A stretch of DNA of 64,000 nt from Thermoproteota archaeon (lineage in GTDB: Archaea; Thermoproteota; Thermoprotei_A; EX4484-217-1): assembly GCA_029258915.1 (NCBI GenBank), contig JAPDJU010000005.1:124001-188000 (forward strand). Reading direction: 5' to 3'. The translations under genes were made by a program, and so were the position numbers. Below, in pieces: positions 17,186-53,428 of this stretch. Every line of letters begins with the position of its first letter. Positions within the stretch are counted from its first letter, which is position 1. The notes under the pieces are model-generated. The model was not told the DNA's origin, made no database searches, and saw nothing but the letters and a program-made list of their open reading frames with translations.

Positions 17186-17234
17186 TCAGCGGAGGTTCAT
17201 TTCATCATTTACTCAGTTTAGTCAGCTTCATCAT
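17186..17234 (-). ncRNA. C/D box sRNA (dual guide)
   Basis: Read on the minus strand: C ATGATGA (17228-17234), guide AGCTGACTAAA (11 nt), D' CTGA (17213-17216), spacer GTAA, C' ATGATGA (17202-17208), guide AATGAACCTCCG (12 nt), D CTGA (17186-17189). All four boxes are consensus and the spacing is textbook for an archaeal 2'-O-methylation guide. It fills the gap between thrS and the PP-loop gene, on their strand. Predicted targets are UUUAGUCAGCU and CGGAGGUUCAUU; I could not place them in rRNA or tRNA by eye. Confidence 0.88.
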
Positions 17235-33902: not shown

Positions 33903-33958
33903 ATGATGAGTGTGGCGGGCTTGACTCTAAAGAGGATGAAGACTTAGGAGCCCCCTGA
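33903..33958 (+). ncRNA. C/D box sRNA, D' guide complementary to 16S decoding site
   Basis: C ATGATGA 33903-33909, guide GTGTGGCGGGC 33910-33920, D' TTGA 33921-33924, C' AGGATGA 33933-33939, guide AGACTTAGGAGCCCC, D CTGA 33955-33958. The first guide pairs over all 11 nt (one G-U) with the universal 16S segment GCCCGUCACAC, E. coli G1401-C1411. The fifth base before D' faces G1405. The D guide target (GGGGCUCCUAAGUCU) was not placed. It ends 28 bases before the TPR gene start, on the same strand. Confidence 0.82.
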
Positions 33959-37341: not shown

Positions 37342-40188
37342 GTGCTTTTAGTGAACGACTGCATAAACAGCGATATACTAAGAAACCTTGTTAGGGAAAG
37401 AGGGTGGCGTAATCTTACATTACCTCAAAAACTAACTATACCTAAAATTAAAGCCGGCTATAATGTTCTTCTCGTAGCTCCAACAGGTTACGGTAAGACC
37501 GAAGCAGCTTTACTGCCTATATTTGAAATGATGCTTAAAAACAATGTTAAGCCTGTATCTGTAATTTACATTACACCTCTAAAAGCTCTAATAAATGATT
37601 TAACGCGTAGACTTGCTTGGTGGGCTAGTAGGCTCGGTTTTAATGTAGCTCGTAAACATGGTGATGTGCCTTCCTATGAAAGAGCTAAGAGATTAAGAAA
37701 AGCCCCTCACATATTAGTTACAACACCTGAAGGCCTTAAAATAGATCTTGACTGGGCTTCGAAATTTAGAAAATTCTACACTAACGTCAAATGGGTTATT
37801 ATAGATGAGGTTCACGAATTAGTTCTCTCTAAAAGAGGAATACAATTGTCTATCCTTCTAGAGAGACTTAAGAAAATAGCTGGAAGAGATTTCCAGAGAA
37901 TAGCGCTTTCAGCAACCATAGGAAACCCGGAAGTTATTGCTAAGCTTATTTTTGGATCATCAAGACGTAAACATGTAGTAATAGAAATAAACGAAGAGAA
38001 AACAATGATTTTCGAAATAGATTCTATAGATGAGGAAAACAATGATGAAGAACTATGGAATTCCATATCAAAGACTGTTATGAAACATGTAGAACAACCA
38101 AGTCTAATCTTCGTTAATTCCAGAGCTGCCGCTGAAAGATTGCATGAGGTACTAGAGAAACATGGGCTAAAGAGTATAGGAGTTCATCATTCCTCGGTTT
38201 CCAAAGATCTTAGATTAAAAATGGAAGATATGCTTAGTAGCAACGAAATTACAGGTGTTATCTGTACTAAAACTCTAGAATTAGGGATAGATGTAGAGAA
38301 TATAAAGAAAGTTATACAATTCCAACCTCCAGGCTCTACTACTACATTACTGCAAAGAGTAGGTAGAAGCGGACATAGTGCTTCCAAGGAATCTCATGGT
38401 GTAATAGTGTGTTTAGGCGAGGTAGACGTTTTAGAGGCATTAGCCACTGCGATTTTAGCTGTAAATAAAGACTTGGAGGAACCATGTATTTTAGAAAAAC
38501 CACTGGATGTATTAGCTAAGGAAATCTTAGGAATCATACTTCAATATGAAGGAGCAAACATAGATACTATATATGAAATAATTAAAGGAGCTTACCCCTA
38601 TAGGAACCTTACAAAGAAAGAATTAATCAACTTACTAAAATATTTAGCTAAAAATAACATAATAACGCTGGACCCTATATCACAAGCGCTTAGAATAGGC
38701 CCTATGTTCTTCAAAATATGGAGATTTAACATTGAAAATGGGTTAAAAACATGGTGGATGAAGAGTTTTTCAGAGTTTTTCACTACAATAAGTGAGAAAC
38801 AATCGTTCCAAGTAAAATATGGGACACGAACTATAGGCGATATAGACTCACATTATGTTTATAGATTTTTAAGAGTAGGTGACGTATTTAGGCTTTCAGG
38901 AAAGAACTGGAAAGTTTTAGAAATAGATGATAATACCATGAGAATTCCTGTTATACCGTCAGATGATGTGGAAGCAGAAATACCTATATGGAAAGGGGAG
39001 GGTATAAGAAGGTCAAGCAAACTTTCAAAGACTATGGGTTCTCTTCTCACAACCTTTATGTCAGGGAGCATGGTTTCCCATAGAAACGTAATAGTTCATA
39101 AAGAAGCCGTTAGAAAAATCACGAAACTTATAAGCAACATAAAAACATATGGCTTCCAAGTTCCTGATGAAAAAACTTTAGTTGTAGAAAAAGTAAATGA
39201 TGAAACAACATTCCTATATTGGATGGGTCAAAATTTAGCCGAAACCCTATCTCATATTCTTATGTACCTTATTTCAGCTAAATACACGTTAAATGTTCAA
39301 GCAAAGGTTTCCCATATAGGCTTTTCAATAAAGGTGAGAGGTGTTGATCCTTTAAAGTTACTACTAAGTATAGATACGAGTGAAGTAGAAGAGCTTATTA
39401 TGCGAGCGTTGGATAGATCTCCTCTATACTACTACACTCTAAGGGAATTACAGCTAAGTTTCGGGAAAATAGGCAAAGTAAGTATGGAGGATAAAATAAT
39501 ACATGAGGAAGCTAAAAGACAGGTTATAGCACGTTACATGAATGTTAATGAAGCTAAGAATTTTATTGAAAAATTAAAGAACGGCGAAATAAACATAGTA
39601 ATCGTTAAAGGTAAGAATTCACCTTTGGGGGGACACATTATAAAGCTGCCTCCTGTAAGACCTTGGATCAAAGATTCCACATTACTGATCATTCAGACAT
39701 TAGAAGATATTGCCTTAACAGCTGATGAGCTTTCAGAAATACTTGAACTACCACGTAGAACTATAGAACATAAGTTAAAGGTACTAAGAAAACCTGGCGT
39801 TGCAGATAGAGTTGTTCAGTTTATAGATGTTGATATAAATGAGTGGAGATGGGTTCTTCTCAGGAATATAAAACATATTTATAAGTCCCCAGAATACAGT
39901 GCATCATTTAAACCACTGGATATGGATGAAATATTTACACTATATATAAAACCTTTAGGTGAAAACTCATATTACACCACATATTTTACGGTTAGAGAAT
40001 TACTTGGTAATATTAGGGAATTCCTACTTAGGGTGCCATTTAATGAAATATATGAAGTAAGAGTTGTTCCATTAAATAGTATTCTTGGAACGTTTACACC
40101 AAAATATTTCTATGTGTCTAAACAAGCACTGCCATACATAACACTTAATGGTGTTACATATCTTCAGATAGCCAAGGGTTATGGGTAA
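37342..40188 (+). CDS. Lhr-type superfamily 2 ATP-dependent helicase
   Basis: 948-residue large helicase-related protein. Walker A is A-P-T-G-Y-G-K-T (about 50-57), Walker B D-E-V-H, motif III S-A-T, and motif VI V-G-R-S-G-H-S. The Lhr-specific winged helix and the beta-sheet C-terminal domain fill the remaining half. Archaeal Lhr unwinds branched DNA and DNA-RNA hybrids in repair. The annotated start is GTG 37342; GTG 37351, with GGTG six bases before it, is equally good. Confidence 0.9.
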   Translation: MLLVNDCINSDILRNLVRERGWRNLTLPQKLTIPKIKAGYNVLLVAPTGYGKTEAALLPIFEMMLKNNVKPVSVIYITPLKALINDLTRRLAWWASRLGFNVARKHGDVPSYERAKRLRKAPHILVTTPEGLKIDLDWASKFRKFYTNVKWVIIDEVHELVLSKRGIQLSILLERLKKIAGRDFQRIALSATIGNPEVIAKLIFGSSRRKHVVIEINEEKTMIFEIDSIDEENNDEELWNSISKTVMKHVEQPSLIFVNSRAAAERLHEVLEKHGLKSIGVHHSSVSKDLRLKMEDMLSSNEITGVICTKTLELGIDVENIKKVIQFQPPGSTTTLLQRVGRSGHSASKESHGVIVCLGEVDVLEALATAILAVNKDLEEPCILEKPLDVLAKEILGIILQYEGANIDTIYEIIKGAYPYRNLTKKELINLLKYLAKNNIITLDPISQALRIGPMFFKIWRFNIENGLKTWWMKSFSEFFTTISEKQSFQVKYGTRTIGDIDSHYVYRFLRVGDVFRLSGKNWKVLEIDDNTMRIPVIPSDDVEAEIPIWKGEGIRRSSKLSKTMGSLLTTFMSGSMVSHRNVIVHKEAVRKITKLISNIKTYGFQVPDEKTLVVEKVNDETTFLYWMGQNLAETLSHILMYLISAKYTLNVQAKVSHIGFSIKVRGVDPLKLLLSIDTSEVEELIMRALDRSPLYYYTLRELQLSFGKIGKVSMEDKIIHEEAKRQVIARYMNVNEAKNFIEKLKNGEINIVIVKGKNSPLGGHIIKLPPVRPWIKDSTLLIIQTLEDIALTADELSEILELPRRTIEHKLKVLRKPGVADRVVQFIDVDINEWRWVLLRNIKHIYKSPEYSASFKPLDMDEIFTLYIKPLGENSYYTTYFTVRELLGNIREFLLRVPFNEIYEVRVVPLNSILGTFTPKYFYVSKQALPYITLNGVTYLQIAKGYG

Positions 40189-40191
40189 AAA

Positions 40192-40938
40192 TTATTCCCC
40201 TATTTCTACAAAATCCTTTAATTTATTATATAAGTCTCTAGGCTTCTTCGTATAAAGCCTTATTCTCGTTACACTTCTACCAGCCATTGCAGCTTCTTGA
40301 ACAATGTCTAAGTCTACGAAGTTTCTTTTCTCATTACATACAATGTTTTTAGCTTTAAGCGGAAAAGTTAAGGATAAACCCGCTCCTGCTTCCGAATATA
40401 TTCCTTTCTCGGTTACTACGTAATCATTAAGTACCATTAATGTTGTGAAGCCTCGACGTTTAACCATAATGCTTTGGCCTAGTCTTGAAATCATTGAAAC
40501 TGCAAAGAAAGTTTCGTACAATATTACATATCTTATGAGACGTTCAAAAAACTCTAACTTTTCAGCTTCACCTACAATAAACCCTCTTAAATGCGGAATT
40601 AGGATAAGTAGTATGAAAATTGCTACAAAAGGTAAAATCATAGATAAGAATTGACCTTTCATTTCAGATATAAGCAAACGGTCTCTGGTCATTAATTGCC
40701 GTACTTCAGCTGCTTTAGCTCTAAATATCCTTTTAGCTTTCTTTACAACGTCTATGTCCTTTACTCTGCCTTTAATCATTTTCCTTGTGAAATAATACAT
40801 TAGTGCTCCGAAGATTAAAATGTAGATAACTATGAATACAGTTATATATCCTGGAGGAAGCAATGCATTTGCAAATGCGAAACTTAACAAAAGCGTTTGG
40901 CTTAAACCATATTGCATAAAGAACCTTTTAAACCTCAT
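40192..40938 (-). CDS. DUF106-like membrane protein (Oxa1/YidC/EMC3 superfamily?)
   Basis: 248 residues with two N-terminal membrane segments, a basic coiled-coil-like cytoplasmic loop (K-R-I-F-R-A-K-A-A-E-V-R-Q-L), two more membrane segments (about 88-113 and 130-147), and a soluble C-terminal domain of about 90 residues. This topology resembles the archaeal DUF106 insertases, but the extra C-terminal domain is unusual and the identity is tentative. It is divergent from the sRNA-rich unit starting at 41029 and converges with the Lhr gene, 3 bases apart. Confidence 0.55.
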   Translation of the reverse strand: MRFKRFFMQYGLSQTLLLSFAFANALLPPGYITVFIVIYILIFGALMYYFTRKMIKGRVKDIDVVKKAKRIFRAKAAEVRQLMTRDRLLISEMKGQFLSMILPFVAIFILLILIPHLRGFIVGEAEKLEFFERLIRYVILYETFFAVSMISRLGQSIMVKRRGFTTLMVLNDYVVTEKGIYSEAGAGLSLTFPLKAKNIVCNEKRNFVDLDIVQEAAMAGRSVTRIRLYTKKPRDLYNKLKDFVEIGE

Positions 40939-40991
40939 TAACAGCTGACCTCAGAATGTAACTTAACTAATCTTATTTAAAACTTTGTGGA

Positions 40992-41005
40992 AATTAATAT
41001 ATTTT
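40992..41005 (+). promoter_or_regulatory. Promoter of the sRNA/41157 transcript
   Basis: ATTAATATATTTTT at 40992-41005 contains a TATA box with an A-rich upstream element. It would start transcription near 41025-41030, almost exactly at the C box of the first sRNA, so the RNA would be at the 5' end of the message. Confidence 0.5.
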
Positions 41006-41028
41006 TGCTCTACAAACTATACTCAGGA

Positions 41029-41078
41029 GTGATGAATGAACCCGGATCTGAAATAATGATTGCATGTGGAAGGTCTGA
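41029..41078 (+). ncRNA. C/D box sRNA
   Basis: C GTGATGA 41029-41035, guide ATGAACCCGGAT (12 nt), D' CTGA 41048-41051, spacer AATA, C' ATGATTG 41056-41062, guide CATGTGGAAGGT (12 nt), D CTGA 41075-41078. Both guides are exactly 12 nt. Predicted targets are AUCCGGGUUCAU and ACCUUCCACAUG; the first resembles a tRNA T-arm sequence. First member of a three-sRNA cluster. Confidence 0.85.
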
Positions 41079-41094
41079 CCATAACATAAAGTAG

Positions 41095-41148
41095 CCGATG
41101 AAGAAAACGCGAAAACCACTGAAAAATGACGAAGTTATCCCCGTCGGA
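41095..41148 (+). ncRNA. C/D box sRNA, D guide complementary to 23S PTC loop
   Basis: C box CCGATGA 41095-41101, D' CTGA 41119-41122, spacer AAA, C' ATGACGA 41126-41132, guide AGTTATCCCCGT (12 nt, 41133-41144), D box CGGA 41145-41148 (non-standard). Bases 41134-41143 pair perfectly with the universal 23S segment CGGGGAUAAC, E. coli C2443-C2452. The fifth base before D faces G2446. The imperfect D box is the main doubt, but its 3' end resembles that of the sRNA at 41750. It ends 8 bases before the ATG at 41157 and overlaps that gene's GGAGG. Confidence 0.65.
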
Positions 41149-41156
41149 GGTTTAAA

Positions 41157-41744
41157 ATGAAATTTTCAAGGAACATACATTTAATTGCTAATTTAAAACC
41201 CCAGATTCTGATTACAAAGATCATAAAGGAGGCTAAAAATTATGGGTTAAATATTGTAGAAATTAACGAAGAAGAGAGAACAGTTAGACTTATTGTTCCA
41301 CTTAAAATGTATCCTATTATACCTGAAATTGCTAGAAGATTCTGTAGCTATGTTGAATACCAAGTGGTCTCTAGGGCTAGACATGGTCTCTCTGCTGCAA
41401 AACTTAAGAAAATATATAAAGAGTTAAAGAACGTGGAAAATATTAAATGCTGGCTTATTGAACCACCGAAATCTTATGCTAGAATTTTGGGTTTACATAC
41501 GACGGCTCATGGTGTAGTATTTATTGAAATTTATCCCGCTAGAGCAGGTGTTAAAGGTAAGATTATGTTAAAATATATAGGTGAAAAAACTACATGCACC
41601 ACTACTTATTTCTTAACAGTAACAGTATCACACACGTTTTTTACCTATATTAGTAGAGAAAAATTCTACAACGTTATTGAGAAGGCAGCAAAGAGCTTTA
41701 TTCTTTGTGAGAAAGTGTTAAAGAATTTGCTAGGTAAATTATAG
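41157..41744 (+). CDS. Uncharacterised protein encoded between C/D box sRNAs
   Basis: 195 residues of unknown function. Mixed alpha/beta with a basic central part (S-R-A-R-H-G-L-S-A-A-K-L-K-K-I-Y). Two strand-rich regions follow, H-G-V-V-F-I-E-I-Y-P-A-R and T-T-Y-F-L-T-V-T-V. No membrane segment or cysteine pair. It starts at ATG 41157 behind GGAGG (41147-41151). Two C/D sRNAs precede it and one follows 5 bases after its stop, all on the same strand, so it probably shares a transcript with them. A link to RNA modification is possible. Confidence 0.65.
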   Translation: MKFSRNIHLIANLKPQILITKIIKEAKNYGLNIVEINEEERTVRLIVPLKMYPIIPEIARRFCSYVEYQVVSRARHGLSAAKLKKIYKELKNVENIKCWLIEPPKSYARILGLHTTAHGVVFIEIYPARAGVKGKIMLKYIGEKTTCTTTYFLTVTVSHTFFTYISREKFYNVIEKAAKSFILCEKVLKNLLGKL

Positions 41745-41749
41745 AATAG

Positions 41750-41805
41750 GTGATGAATGCCCTATCCTTTGAGGACACCCGATGAAGTAAAGTAATCCCG
41801 TCTGA
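41750..41805 (+). ncRNA. C/D box sRNA
   Basis: C GTGATGA 41750-41756, guide ATGCCCTATCCT (12 nt), D' TTGA 41769-41772, spacer GGACAC, C' CCGATGA 41779-41785, guide ending AAGTAATCCCGT, D CTGA 41802-41805. It starts 5 bases after the stop of the unknown gene. Its 3' half (CCCGTCTGAGTTT) resembles that of the sRNA at 41095 (CCCGTCGGAGGTTT), suggesting duplication. The D guide does not match the same 23S site. Confidence 0.78.
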
Positions 41806-41808
41806 GTT

Positions 41809-42360
41809 TCAAACCTTCTTTATAGTTTTTGTCGTCACATCTTGATAAACTAAAGCTGCGCTTTTTAAAACTTCTAATAACTTAACTTCTTCCCTACTTA
41901 ACTTCTTAACTTCATCTAAAGGCAATGGTAATTTATTTAAGAACTCATTTAGCTTAGGCTTGTATACAAGGTACGCTTTTCCAGCTGCATATATTATGTC
42001 CAAAACTCCATCATAAATTAACCTTTCTACTCTTTCACGTGAAACTTTAATTCTATCCATTGGGTATACTACAACATCTTTCATGAACTCTACGAATCTA
42101 TTATGTTTTGCCTTAGCTGTTTCTCTTCTTGTACTTACAGTCCTTTTTAACTCGCTTACCTCTTTCTCAAGTACGTCTATTCTCTCCATAACTCTATATA
42201 TTAAGTCACCAAAGCGTTCTACTCTAGCTTCTATAAGAAATCTTAAAACATCGTTAATACTTACTTCCTTTCCAAATATTTTCTCAATAAGTTCTCTTAA
42301 GTGCTCTAATTTTTCAAATACTTCATCTGTAACTATAATTGTTTTAGGCATTATTTCCAC
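41809..42360 (-). CDS. RHH DNA-binding protein with coiled coil and shared C-terminal module
   Basis: 183 residues. Residues 4-55 form a ribbon-helix-helix (K-T-I-I-V-T-D-E-V-F-E-K-L ... V-S-I-N-D-V-L-R-F-L-I-E-A). A coiled coil follows (V-M-E-R-I-D-V-L-E-K-E-V-S-E-L-K). The C-terminal domain has L-P-L-P-L-D-E-V-K-K-L ... L-L-E-V-L ... L-V-Y. The last domain is homologous by eye to the C-terminus of the winged-helix protein at 7677-8417. Likely DNA-binding regulator or architectural protein. Divergent from reverse gyrase only in the sense that it lies just upstream on the same strand (31-base gap). Confidence 0.8.
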   Translation of the reverse strand: MEIMPKTIIVTDEVFEKLEHLRELIEKIFGKEVSINDVLRFLIEARVERFGDLIYRVMERIDVLEKEVSELKRTVSTRRETAKAKHNRFVEFMKDVVVYPMDRIKVSRERVERLIYDGVLDIIYAAGKAYLVYKPKLNEFLNKLPLPLDEVKKLSREEVKLLEVLKSAALVYQDVTTKTIKKV

Positions 42361-42391
42361 GAACTAAATTACTGTATTAACGGTATAAATT

Positions 42392-45300
42392 TTACCATGA
42401 AACCTCAGCTTCCTTCCCTGCTTTTATAGGAACAAGCATGGCGAGTTTCTGCAATTCTCCATGCAGGTTTCTTAGTATATCAATGTAATTTAATTCTCCT
42501 CTTTCTATTGCCTCCATGATTTGTTCTAGCAGTCTTGTTGTTTCTTCTGAAACGAAAGGTTCAAAGTTATTGTAGAGATAGGAATAAACACTCTTACCTG
42601 TAGCTGTAGGGACTAAGTATTTGTTTTTGCTTTCAATAACGTATCCTCTTTTAAGAATTGTGCTTAAAACTTTAGCATATGTCGAAGGTCTTCCTATACC
42701 TTTTTCCTTCATCAACTTTATTACATCACCTTGCCTATAGAGCCTTTCCAAAGAGCCTTTCCATAGTCTATAGCTAACTATTTTTAAAACATCGCCTTTG
42801 CTTATACTACGCCATGATTCATTAACAGTTATAGGTAAAACTTTAAGGAATCCTTCTTTAATTACTTTGGAAACGAATTCTATAACTTTCACGTTCTCCC
42901 CTATCTTGACGTGTAACCTTGTCTTTTCAACAACGGCTTTAATCATTTGACTCGCTATAAATCGTCTAAATATTAAATCATAGACTTTAAAATGGTCGTA
43001 TGTAAGGTTAGCATATACTTTTATTGAACCTGTTAAGATCATTTTCCTTAAACGCTCAACATCCAGTGGCCTTGTAGGTCTAATGCATTCATGAGCGCCA
43101 TGTGGACTCCATTTTCTGGGATTAAACAGTTCTTCATCATTAAAGACATCTTTTAAGTAGCTTTTTGCAACTTCTATGCCTTGATTTGAAACCCTTATGC
43201 TATCTGTTCTGTGATATGTTATAAGACCTGATTCAAAGAGCTGCTGAAGAATTTTCATAGCATATTTAGTATCCATCCTATAGTATGTTGAAAGATCGAA
43301 AAGCAAACTATTGGTATTGTAAGGAGGCGGTGGATTTATTTCCTCAGTAAAACTGGACTTTATAAGTATAAATGCACCACTCTTAGCATAGTCTTTAATC
43401 ATAGCCCTATTTACATGTACATCGTAGTCTATCCTTACCGTTAACCCGTTTTCTAGAACATAATCTACAAATAATCTACGTGTTTTCTTCCATTTTTCAT
43501 GCTGCTTTATTATCCATCCTAGTACTGGTGTTTGCACTCTTCCGGCCGAAAGCCAATGTTTGCCAAAATACAACCATAGTTTTCTTGATAGTTCAAACCC
43601 TATCCATCTGTCTTCAATTCTCCTAACAATCTGAGCCTCAACAAGTCTCAGATTAATACCTCTAGGTCTGGCTAAAGCATTCACTATAGCTCTTCTAGTT
43701 ATTTCATGAAATTCTATTCTGTATATTTCCCCTACATATGGCTTTAAAAGAACATAAATATCCCATGCTATTTTTTCTCCTTCACTATCAGGATCCGTTG
43801 CTATAAAGACGACATCAACTTCTTGTGCTAACCTACGGAGAATATCAATTACTTCTTTAGAATCCATTATTCTTGATGATTCACATTTAGGACAAATATT
43901 TTCATCTAATGTAAACTGGTATCCACAGCTTCTACACCGTTTAATCGTTGAATATACGGGTGTTATAGTATTATTTACCAGTACACCATGATATCCTATT
44001 TCATTATCAGAAACTAAGTCTAATATATGGCCTCTTGTAGCTACTATAGTCACCATATAGTCCTTTGTACCTAAAATAGGGTCCCCTATTATTACCTCAT
44101 ATGCCATGATCCTGCCTAGTCTTCTCTTAGACGGCTTTCCAAAAAACGAGGCTATGGTTCTAGCTTTTGTTGGTGATTCCACCACCATAAGAGCTGAAAT
44201 AATAGGGTCTTTAAAAACCGCTTTTACTTTTCCTTCTAAAATGCTTTTTACAAATTCTCTGTCTTTGTCTATTTCTGCTATTACCTTCTCTAAGTTTACC
44301 TGACTTAACAGCTTTGTCTCAAATGCATCTATGTAGTATTTTAGCTGCTTACAGAACGCCTTGAAAACCTTCTCACTATCTACAATAACTATAGATAATC
44401 CCTTTGTCATACCATTAGCGAACATTCTTGATGTTCTACCACTGGCTTGAATATATGTCATAACGTCAGGTACTACAACGTAAAGTTTACCGTTTATTTC
44501 TCTTAATATTAGTAAGTTGTTTTCCTTAACCTTACGCTTTATATCTTCAATGTAAACTTTACTAAGAATATAATTCTTTACCTCTACCAGGAAAAGCCTA
44601 ATTTTCTCTAGAAACCCTTCTAATGCAACATTCTCTCTTAACGATTTAATTATTAATCTATGTTCTTTATAGCTTATCTTTTCTATGACCTTTCTTAACC
44701 TGTTAATGTAACTGGCTATTCTATCTTTGTCATCATCAATTATATCTTCCAATACTAAAAGCATAGACAGTATTTTTAGTGGATTATTCAAGCTCTTATC
44801 TAAAGCAACTTGAAACTTAGGAACGCCAAGGAATATAGCGTATCTTATTTTATCAGGTATGTCGAGGCCTCTAACTATAACACCATAGTAGCTGGCAACG
44901 CCAACTAAGATATCAACGTCGCCTTTAATGAACTTTTCAATGTATCCTCTTCTTGAAGACGATGCTAAGGCAGCTTTAATGTTTTCTTTATTTAAATATT
45001 GTACAAGATCCTTTGCTACGTTTATACCTAGGTCTTGAGAAATAAAGATTAGGCCTCCGGGGCCTAAGGTTTTAACAAAATCCAATATCTGCTTCTTGTA
45101 GTCATCATCCATATAAACATACGTGTCAGCAACATTCCTCATATATTCTACAACGGTTCCTGCTTCAAAGTTTAAAAGTTCTTTAAAAATTTTAGCTTTA
45201 ATGCCTTTACTTCTACCTGTAGCACTACTTACTACTACTTGGCCTATTTTATGTCCTTTAATATAGTCTTCTATTTCCTTTCTTAATTTGGCTATTTTAT

Positions 45301-46117
45301 TTTTCTTTTCCTCTATTTTGTCGTACTGAGCATTGGTCATTAAGAGCTTAACTAACTCTATTTTGTCAAGTACGAGTCTATACGCCTTATTAATTACATC
45401 ACTGTTAAAACCTATTAGCTGAAGAACCCTATCTACATTCTTAGAGTTTCTTAGTAAAGCATCTACATCGTCAACTATGATTAATGTAAATCTATTTTTA
45501 GCTATTTTATCAAAGTTTCTAGATAGCTGTGCTGCTGTAGATAGTAATATGTCAAACTCTCCCTTAGTTAAAATTTTCTTTTCCTCTTCTCTATGATATT
45601 GCCGGCAGCCTAAAGCTAACACTTTAATGTTAAGGGAGGATGAATTAACTATGTTTAATATACCATTATACACTTGCTTTAACAATACCTTAGTGGGAAC
45701 TATGAAGTATAATTTCCCTTTTCCCTTGGCTATATGGTATAAACTATAAACCATTAAGAAAGTTGTTTTCCCTACACCAGTAGGTGCTATTATAGCAAAG
45801 CTTTCTCCTCTTATTAATCTCTTAGCCCATGTTCTTTGAGCGCTCCAAGGTGTCTTACCTGTAATTGTTTTAAAGAACTTTAAAAAATCCTTAAACTCTG
45901 TCTCTAAATCGTATATTTTTTTAAACTTTAATAGTTTGTTCTTGAAGAGAAGTTTTTCATATATGAATTTAATTTTCTCTTTCTCTCTTAAATATTCTTC
46001 ATATCTGAGATCACATGCAGGTAAACATTTTTCACATGGTAAGCCTAATTCAAGTCTCTCAGAAGAAATAGACCCCTCACAATTAGGGCATACTCTACAT
46101 ATTACAGTAAAAGGCAA
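42392..46117 (-). CDS. rgy: Reverse gyrase
   Basis: 1241-residue fusion of an SF2 helicase and topoisomerase IA, which introduces positive supercoils and is the hallmark of hyperthermophiles. The N-terminal zinc finger has Cys10, Cys13, Cys28 and Cys31. Walker A is A-P-T-G-V-G-K-T (111-118) and Walker B I-V-D-D-V-D. The TOPRIM domain begins V-V-E-S-P-T-K-A-R-T, with D-P-D-S-E-G-E further on; a second zinc finger is C-R-S-C ... C-P-K-C. The catalytic tyrosine is Tyr968 in T-Y-H-R-T-D-S. All parts are present and uninterrupted. Confidence 0.97.
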   Translation of the reverse strand: MPFTVICRVCPNCEGSISSERLELGLPCEKCLPACDLRYEEYLREKEKIKFIYEKLLFKNKLLKFKKIYDLETEFKDFLKFFKTITGKTPWSAQRTWAKRLIRGESFAIIAPTGVGKTTFLMVYSLYHIAKGKGKLYFIVPTKVLLKQVYNGILNIVNSSSLNIKVLALGCRQYHREEEKKILTKGEFDILLSTAAQLSRNFDKIAKNRFTLIIVDDVDALLRNSKNVDRVLQLIGFNSDVINKAYRLVLDKIELVKLLMTNAQYDKIEEKKNKIAKLRKEIEDYIKGHKIGQVVVSSATGRSKGIKAKIFKELLNFEAGTVVEYMRNVADTYVYMDDDYKKQILDFVKTLGPGGLIFISQDLGINVAKDLVQYLNKENIKAALASSSRRGYIEKFIKGDVDILVGVASYYGVIVRGLDIPDKIRYAIFLGVPKFQVALDKSLNNPLKILSMLLVLEDIIDDDKDRIASYINRLRKVIEKISYKEHRLIIKSLRENVALEGFLEKIRLFLVEVKNYILSKVYIEDIKRKVKENNLLILREINGKLYVVVPDVMTYIQASGRTSRMFANGMTKGLSIVIVDSEKVFKAFCKQLKYYIDAFETKLLSQVNLEKVIAEIDKDREFVKSILEGKVKAVFKDPIISALMVVESPTKARTIASFFGKPSKRRLGRIMAYEVIIGDPILGTKDYMVTIVATRGHILDLVSDNEIGYHGVLVNNTITPVYSTIKRCRSCGYQFTLDENICPKCESSRIMDSKEVIDILRRLAQEVDVVFIATDPDSEGEKIAWDIYVLLKPYVGEIYRIEFHEITRRAIVNALARPRGINLRLVEAQIVRRIEDRWIGFELSRKLWLYFGKHWLSAGRVQTPVLGWIIKQHEKWKKTRRLFVDYVLENGLTVRIDYDVHVNRAMIKDYAKSGAFILIKSSFTEEINPPPPYNTNSLLFDLSTYYRMDTKYAMKILQQLFESGLITYHRTDSIRVSNQGIEVAKSYLKDVFNDEELFNPRKWSPHGAHECIRPTRPLDVERLRKMILTGSIKVYANLTYDHFKVYDLIFRRFIASQMIKAVVEKTRLHVKIGENVKVIEFVSKVIKEGFLKVLPITVNESWRSISKGDVLKIVSYRLWKGSLERLYRQGDVIKLMKEKGIGRPSTYAKVLSTILKRGYVIESKNKYLVPTATGKSVYSYLYNNFEPFVSEETTRLLEQIMEAIERGELNYIDILRNLHGELQKLAMLVPIKAGKEAEVSW

Positions 46118-49382: not shown

Positions 49383-49439
49383 TCAGAGCCCGGTTTTATA
49401 TCATTACTTTTAGATCTCAACCCTTACGAGCTTCATCAT
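49383..49439 (-). ncRNA. C/D box sRNA candidate
   Basis: Minus strand: C ATGATGA (49433-49439), guide AGCTCGTAAGGG (12 nt), D' TTGA (49417-49420), C' ATGATAT (49398-49404), guide AAAACCGGGCT (11 nt), D CTGA (49383-49386). Nine bases of the first guide target (CCCUUACGA) occur in the 16S segment GGCCCUUACGACC of bacteria, so a 16S site is possible. It ends 13 bases upstream of the winged-helix start, on the same strand. Confidence 0.68.
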
Positions 49440-53378: not shown

Positions 53379-53428
53379 ATGATGAGTTGAAACATACTGA
53401 GTTTAATGCGGATCACCGACCTCTCTGA
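53379..53428 (+). ncRNA. C/D box sRNA candidate
   Basis: C ATGATGA 53379-53385, guide GTTGAAACATA (11 nt), D' CTGA 53397-53400, degenerate C' ATGCGGA 53406-53412, guide TCACCGACCTCT (12 nt), D CTGA 53425-53428. It starts right after the winged-helix gene stop and its last 16 bases overlap the 3' end of the convergent zinc-protein gene. The second target is AGAGGUCGGUGA; not placed. Confidence 0.68.

Follow-up and report, generated by a model that had tools for sequence, protein, structure and literature searches.

Archaeal C/D box sRNAs and protein-coding genes are known to share sequence. One account of these RNAs (PMC7994747) describes most of them as having no promoter of their own and many as overlapping the ends of open reading frames (ORFs), and for overlaps at the 5′ end it raises the possibility that the frame is a chance frame or a pseudogene. 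In another described system, the binding of L7Ae to k-turns in leaders is reported to block translation (PMC5539422). Here we describe a cassette of heat-loving archaea in which C/D box sRNAs flank one ORF, an sRNA-ORF-sRNA arrangement that we have not met in the open-licence literature and that may be in print elsewhere.

Layout of the cassette and the evidence for its sRNAs

The window, by which we mean the whole stretch of 64,000 nt that was analysed (G000:C1:124001-188000), belongs to the 1.6 Mb genome of a Thermoproteota archaeon (GCA_029258915.1, contig JAPDJU010000005.1). On its + strand lie, in this order, a TATA-like stretch, sRNA1, sRNA2, an ORF and sRNA3, and the gaps between successive elements from sRNA1 onwards are 16, 8 and 5 nt:

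40192-40938, - strand: DUF2208 gene, the upstream neighbour of the cassette
40993..41005, + strand: TATA-like stretch AATTAATATATTT, found in the sequence by eye
41029..41078, + strand: sRNA1, C/D box sRNA (C 41029-41035 GTGATGA; D′ 41048-41051 CTGA; C′ about 41053-41059; D 41075-41078 CTGA), from the four-box regex, its guide targets and the guides kept in relative G006
41095..41148, + strand: sRNA2 (sRNA-B), C/D box sRNA (C 41095-41101 CCGATGA; D′ 41119-41122 CTGA; C′ 41126-41132 ATGACGA; D 41145-41148 CGGA, non-canonical), with the D guide GTTATCCCCG at 41134-41143
41126..41155, + strand: short frame MTKLSPSEV* from the C′ box of sRNA2, ending one base ahead of the ORF's ATG
41146..41151, + strand: Shine-Dalgarno-like GGAGGT, overlapping the D box of sRNA2 (CGGA) and ending five bases 5′ of the ATG
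41157..41744, + strand: ORF of 195 aa (ATG at 41157, TAG at 41742-41744), from homologues, dN/dS and an AlphaFold model
41750..41805, + strand: sRNA3 (sRNA-C), C/D box sRNA (C 41750-41756 GTGATGA; D′ 41769-41772 TTGA, non-canonical; C′ 41779-41785 CCGATGA; D 41802-41805 CTGA), with the D′ guide TGCCCTATCC to tRNA-Arg D arms
41809-42360, - strand: small gene between the cassette and reverse gyrase, whose only matches are VapB antitoxin-like and sub-threshold

A first-pass annotation had placed three same-strand C/D box sRNAs around the ORF at 41157-41744, and direct reading of the boxes bore this out. The TATA box that it had seen ahead of the first sRNA was located by eye as AATTAATATATTT, about 25-35 nt 5′ of sRNA1, and this stretch is likely to be the promoter of the whole unit. 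A scan with bacterial-type promoter and terminator models, which are unsuited to archaea, gave nothing useful. The window ORF merely abuts sRNA2 and sRNA3, and neither its start codon nor its stop codon lies inside an sRNA.

The strict four-box regex found five sites in the 64 kb window, sRNA1 included, and none in 40 Markov shuffles. Both sRNA2 and sRNA3 are too degenerate for this regex, with one non-canonical box each, and their counterparts in relatives have canonical boxes; the case for these two is therefore mainly one of conservation, to which their guide targets add. The two features by which we recognized an archaeal C/D box sRNA were present, namely C, D′, C′ and D boxes at guide-length spacing and guide complementarity to rRNA or tRNA beside a D or D′ box. 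Targets were sought in the 16S, the 23S and 30 of the 41 tRNA genes of the same genome, with 400 shuffled guides each as the measure of significance. The D guide of sRNA2 pairs over 11 bp with 16S or 10 bp with 23S (candidate sites CGGGGATAAC), which shuffles equal in a share of 0.02, and the D′ guide of sRNA3 pairs over 11 bp with the D arm of one tRNA-Arg and 10 bp with those of others (shuffle share 0.015). As for sRNA1, its D′ guide pairs with tRNA T arms (shuffle share 0.08), while pairing of its D guide with the anticodon loop of tRNA-Gly(UCC) is not significant alone (0.36); both guides are kept in G006. The D′ guide of sRNA2 (0.64) and the D guide of sRNA3 (0.55) had no better-than-chance target in this set of 16S, 23S and 30 of 41 tRNA genes. 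Rfam and ARAGORN gave no match within the window. The predicted role of these sRNAs is that they would be bound by L7Ae, Nop5 and fibrillarin and would guide 2′-O-methylation.

Some further observations concern the window and its genome. The four-box regex pointed to four more canonical C/D box sRNA candidates, at 33903-33958 (+), 53379-53428 (+), 49383-49439 (-) and 17186-17234 (-). The 16S and 23S matches (L003, L004) measure 2196 and 3712 nt against models of 1478 and 2987 positions, which indicates insertions, probably introns. At match positions 694 and 3265 the 23S of this genome (L004) reads GAAACACGGGCC and ACATCGATG, and guides for GAAACACGGACC and ACCTCGAT, carried by relatives, are missing from the window cassette; guide and 23S target may have been lost together in the window genome, in a comparison that uses the 23S of this genome alone.

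The surroundings of the cassette also recur. Positions 37342-46117 of the window form a conserved block of a helicase gene, DUF2208, the guide sRNAs with the ORF and, on the other strand, reverse gyrase, to which relatives add Alba and MgtC-like genes (both named by eye). Recurrent neighbours are a helicase upstream, DUF2208 in families f1, f4 and f5, and, on the downstream side, genes for reverse gyrase, Alba and an MgtC-like protein. G018 lacks the ORF, and its guide precedes the MgtC-like gene.

Conservation of guide B, the ORF and sRNA-C across the class

The starting point was a two-sequence profile of the window protein and its G006 counterpart (28% identical), which led to relatives in other families of the class; the search was run at E ≤ 0.5 and its weak rows enter no count. 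The flanks of those first relatives carried the same guides as the window cassette. Two independent searches, one for guide B and one with a protein profile, were made of the same 229 class genomes and then compared.

Guide B (GTTATCCCCG plus D box) was present in 84 of the 229 genomes, against 3 hits for the reversed control. Part of these 84 exact hits is probably due to chance, and G081, three f12 hits and one f9 hit, which show no C or C′ box by eye, were left in the denominator. The first-pass annotation had named conservation of the arrangement in relatives as its own test; run here, this test went in its favour, with an ORF of about 150-205 aa on the same strand, starting in or just past guide B, at 69 of the 84 guide loci and in several families (f1 1/1, f4 22/22, f5 1/1, f7 19/22, f8 17/17, f10 3/4, f15 3/3, f16 3/3, f3 0/6, f9 0/1, f11 0/1, f12 0/3). 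G037 is a further f4 case with a variant guide. The base adjoining the D box of guide B varies among relatives. Upstream of guide B and the ORF, the sRNA-A guide GGTCCGTGTT was found at 50 of the 69 loci, and at 0 of 69 in the opposite-strand control.

The protein search gave a matching picture from the other side. A 20-row profile (A3: window, G006 and the first-search hits that came with loci) matched in 56 genomes, 49 of them at E ≤ 2.1e-9; the other seven matches (E 1.7e-4 to 8.3e-3) lay in ORFs of other kinds or sizes and were dropped. Exact guide B stood on the same strand, 7-173 nt (median 41) 5′ of the first matched residue, for 44 of the 49 strong homologues, and three more (G069, G071, G203) had a variant guide at that place. 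G080 and G084 keep the protein with no guide B upstream, and the reverse, guide B without the ORF, was seen in six f3 genomes, G092, G093, G027 and G018. The link between guide and protein is thus breakable, having been lost in both directions in several lineages. Three genomes of the window's own order, G001 and G002 (67% and 59% complete) and G003 (98%), had neither the protein nor guide B; a looser guide pattern gave two exact hits in G003 with no cassette nearby, one of them antisense to 16S by our reading.

The 22 f4 ORFs comprise 8 found by the iterated profile and 14 accepted by place, strand and frame, and the three f10 ORFs were likewise accepted by place. Alignments A4 (72 of the 74 ORFs, two fragments being omitted), A5 (45 of those) and A6 (18 of the 22 f4 ORFs) were built. 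Profile A6 of the f4 ORFs, some rows of which had been found by profile, matched A3 with a probability of 95% (E 4e-8). Comparison of the f10 ORFs with the rest was weak and short of significance (12%, E 0.0024), and their homology to the rest, as judged by profile, is not proven. Outside the class, two f34 hits fell in frames of 452 and 464 aa that look by eye like glycoside hydrolases of family 57, and they were rejected as false positives. Ten named contigs came up in a DNA pattern scan, all from Desulfurococcales or Staphylothermus MAGs, and one protein scan of genome contigs gave no match.

Downstream of the ORF, sRNA-C consists of CGCCCTATCC toward the tRNA-Arg D arm, followed by GAATCCCG or TCGAACCC. 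It was found 3′ of the ORF, with the same tRNA-Arg guide as in the window, at 28 of the 74 ORF loci in five families (f1 1/1, f4 18/22, f10 3/3, f15 3/3, f16 3/3), by a regex that missed G117, where it is visible by eye, and that scores inverted copies in G029 and G005 as absent. It was missing after the ORF in f7 (0/23) and f8 (0/18), and in f5 (0/1) the contig ends. The G006 contig stops inside the ORF and so offers no sequence in which sRNA-C could be seen. In G029 and G005 (L166, L167) sRNA-C still adjoins the ORF but is encoded on the opposite strand, as though this small segment had been inverted. The similar 3′ halves of the last two sRNAs, noted at first pass and taken there to point to duplication around the gene, are true as letters and do not reflect a shared history. 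sRNA-B and sRNA-C are distinct families that are separately kept elsewhere and carry unlike guides, GTTATCCCCG before the gene and CGCCCTATCC with GAATCCCG or TCGAACCC after it, and the duplication was rejected.

Overlap with coding sequence and the encoded protein

In relatives of the window cassette, C/D box sRNAs overlap the ORF with its start or stop codon inside them. The start codon lies in the C′ box, about 8 nt 5′ of guide B, at 31 of the 69 loci (in f4, at 18 of 22). The frame that begins there reads LSP(S/T/A/P)(E/D) across the guide and the D box, so that the guide itself is read as codons (LSPSE); eight loci have no later ATG, GTG or TTG up to about +107. Loci with another frame, the window among them, start the ORF 3′ of the D box, and the short frame of the window reads LSPSE, just as many relatives do at the N terminus of their ORF. 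At the other end, the stop codon is the C-box TGA of sRNA-C at eight f4 loci (of the 74 ORF loci), and elsewhere the frame enters sRNA-C and ends in peptides such as MNALSKD. Many f7 and f8 ORFs begin past the guide and overlap it slightly or not at all, yet these loci keep the order too.

The ORF protein belongs to no Pfam or NCBIfam family and matched no PDB sequence below E 0.07. It behaves as the product of a real gene under purifying selection: dN/dS was 0.08-0.44 in 16 of 20 close pairs, the other four being saturated. Divergence is very fast, 71 homologues being 6-28% identical to the window protein. AlphaFold predicted a confident fold for both the window protein (pLDDT 90.0, pTM 0.82) and an f8 protein (pLDDT 92.8, pTM 0.87), and net charge is positive in 73 of 74 ORF proteins (+18 in the window). 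The predicted fold resembles that of TBP (Z 8.5, rmsd 4.7 and 141 aligned residues for the window model; Z 7.1 for the f8 model) and that of the N-terminal tRNA-binding domain of archaeal-type SerRS (Z 7.0 and 7.9, respectively). We speak of likeness in fold and claim no homology, because these scores are close to those of unrelated models and a commonplace arrangement can yield them; no sequence match to TBP was found, and the ORF protein has no sequence link to archaeal-type SerRS either. Absence from the match lists of the fold searches excludes no family. The TBP-like fold of the models and the basic charge would be compatible with nucleic-acid binding. Our guess is a nucleic-acid-binding protein serving RNA upkeep, and its role may lie wholly outside RNA modification, with which the first-pass annotation had tentatively linked it.

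Proposed mechanism, alternatives and relation to known systems

We consider it probable that the cassette is an ancient sRNA-mRNA-sRNA transcription unit in which translation draws on nucleotides that sRNA excision also uses. One promoter 5′ of the first sRNA would yield a precursor that carries C/D box sRNAs and the ORF message and, after the ORF in several families, one more sRNA of the C/D box type. L7Ae, Nop5 and fibrillarin would capture the sRNAs for 2′-O-methylation of rRNA and tRNA, and ribosomes would translate the ORF from the same RNA; in the many relatives where the ORF start falls within the second sRNA and its end within the third sRNA's C box, the shared nucleotides would act as both guide and codons. 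The wedging of the ORF between sRNAs and the shared start and stop signals suggest a common transcript for the protein and the guide RNAs, and the layout, with a single TATA-like site, small gaps and, in relatives, codons shared with the sRNAs, is compatible with one. Excision of sRNA2 would remove the leader or the start codon, so that a single RNA molecule could hardly yield both products; given the reported block by L7Ae (PMC5539422) and the frequent lack of own promoters and overlap with ORF ends (PMC7994747), a guide sRNA placed there suggests that excision and translation are mutually exclusive for each molecule. From the sequences, then, we infer a joint transcript, its processing and a competition between excision and translation. 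A bolder form is a self-gated circuit, in which the leader is a working guide sRNA and every transcript has two alternative fates, assembly into a C/D RNP or use as a translatable mRNA. The protein would be a TBP-fold RNA or rRNP factor, made in inverse proportion to the C/D core proteins that are free, and it would act back on the maturation of ribosomes or tRNA; we regard this circuit as speculative and rather unlikely.

Another reading is that the sRNAs are expressed through the ORF transcript, as is frequent for archaeal C/D sRNAs, with no regulatory or functional link to the protein, and that overlap alone preserves the order, since breakage harms both partners. C/D sRNAs commonly overlap ORF ends according to PMC7994747, and some lineages have kept the guides without the ORF and others the ORF without the guides, which means that neither needs the other. 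Yet in f7 and f8 the order is kept though many ORFs start past the guide, where there is little or no overlap to hold it, and we give this reading an even chance. The elements could also be independent small units, each sRNA having its own promoter partly within the neighbouring element and the clustering being a relic. The inversion of sRNA-C relative to the ORF in G029 and G005 agrees with this, as does the TATA-like motif reported for about 20% of C/D genes (PMC7994747), but gaps of 16, 8 and 5 nt are too small for promoters unless these lie inside the preceding element, and we hold separate units to be improbable. The ORF might be taken for a chance frame 3′ of an sRNA, or for a pseudogene, because of its very fast divergence (6-28% identity over the 71 homologues); a dN/dS of 0.08-0.44, a kept length, pLDDT values of 90-93 and occurrence in many genera speak against this so strongly that we give it hardly any credence.

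Under the shared-transcript reading that we favour, the cassette would be a natural system for studying how one archaeal RNA serves both guide-RNA maturation and translation. The partnership between guide and protein has outlasted a divergence that leaves the protein barely recognizable, and it draws attention to a well-folded family of proteins, as yet without a name, whose place may be in RNA biology.

Among known systems, the vertebrate snoRNA host genes, as referred to in PMC7994747, also release guide RNAs from the transcript of a protein gene, whereas the cassette has no introns and its guides sit at the ORF ends, overlapping coding sequence. The likeness to L7Ae leader autoregulation (PMC5539422) is that a k-turn element in or beside the leader could block translation when bound; here, however, what occupies the leader is an entire guide sRNA whose target is conserved, and regulation is a proposal. 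Closest are the ORF-overlapping archaeal C/D sRNAs of PMC7994747, for which that account likewise describes the lack of an own promoter, a stop codon in the C box, a start in the guide or after the D box, and clusters of two or three. Their partners are described there as variable. The cassette differs in that one guide and one protein family, often with a second guide, have remained partners in up to eight families, and in that both ends of the ORF are commonly shared with sRNAs. Overlap between C/D sRNAs and ORFs is therefore already known, and the new aspect is the stable partnership of a guide with a protein family across up to eight families.
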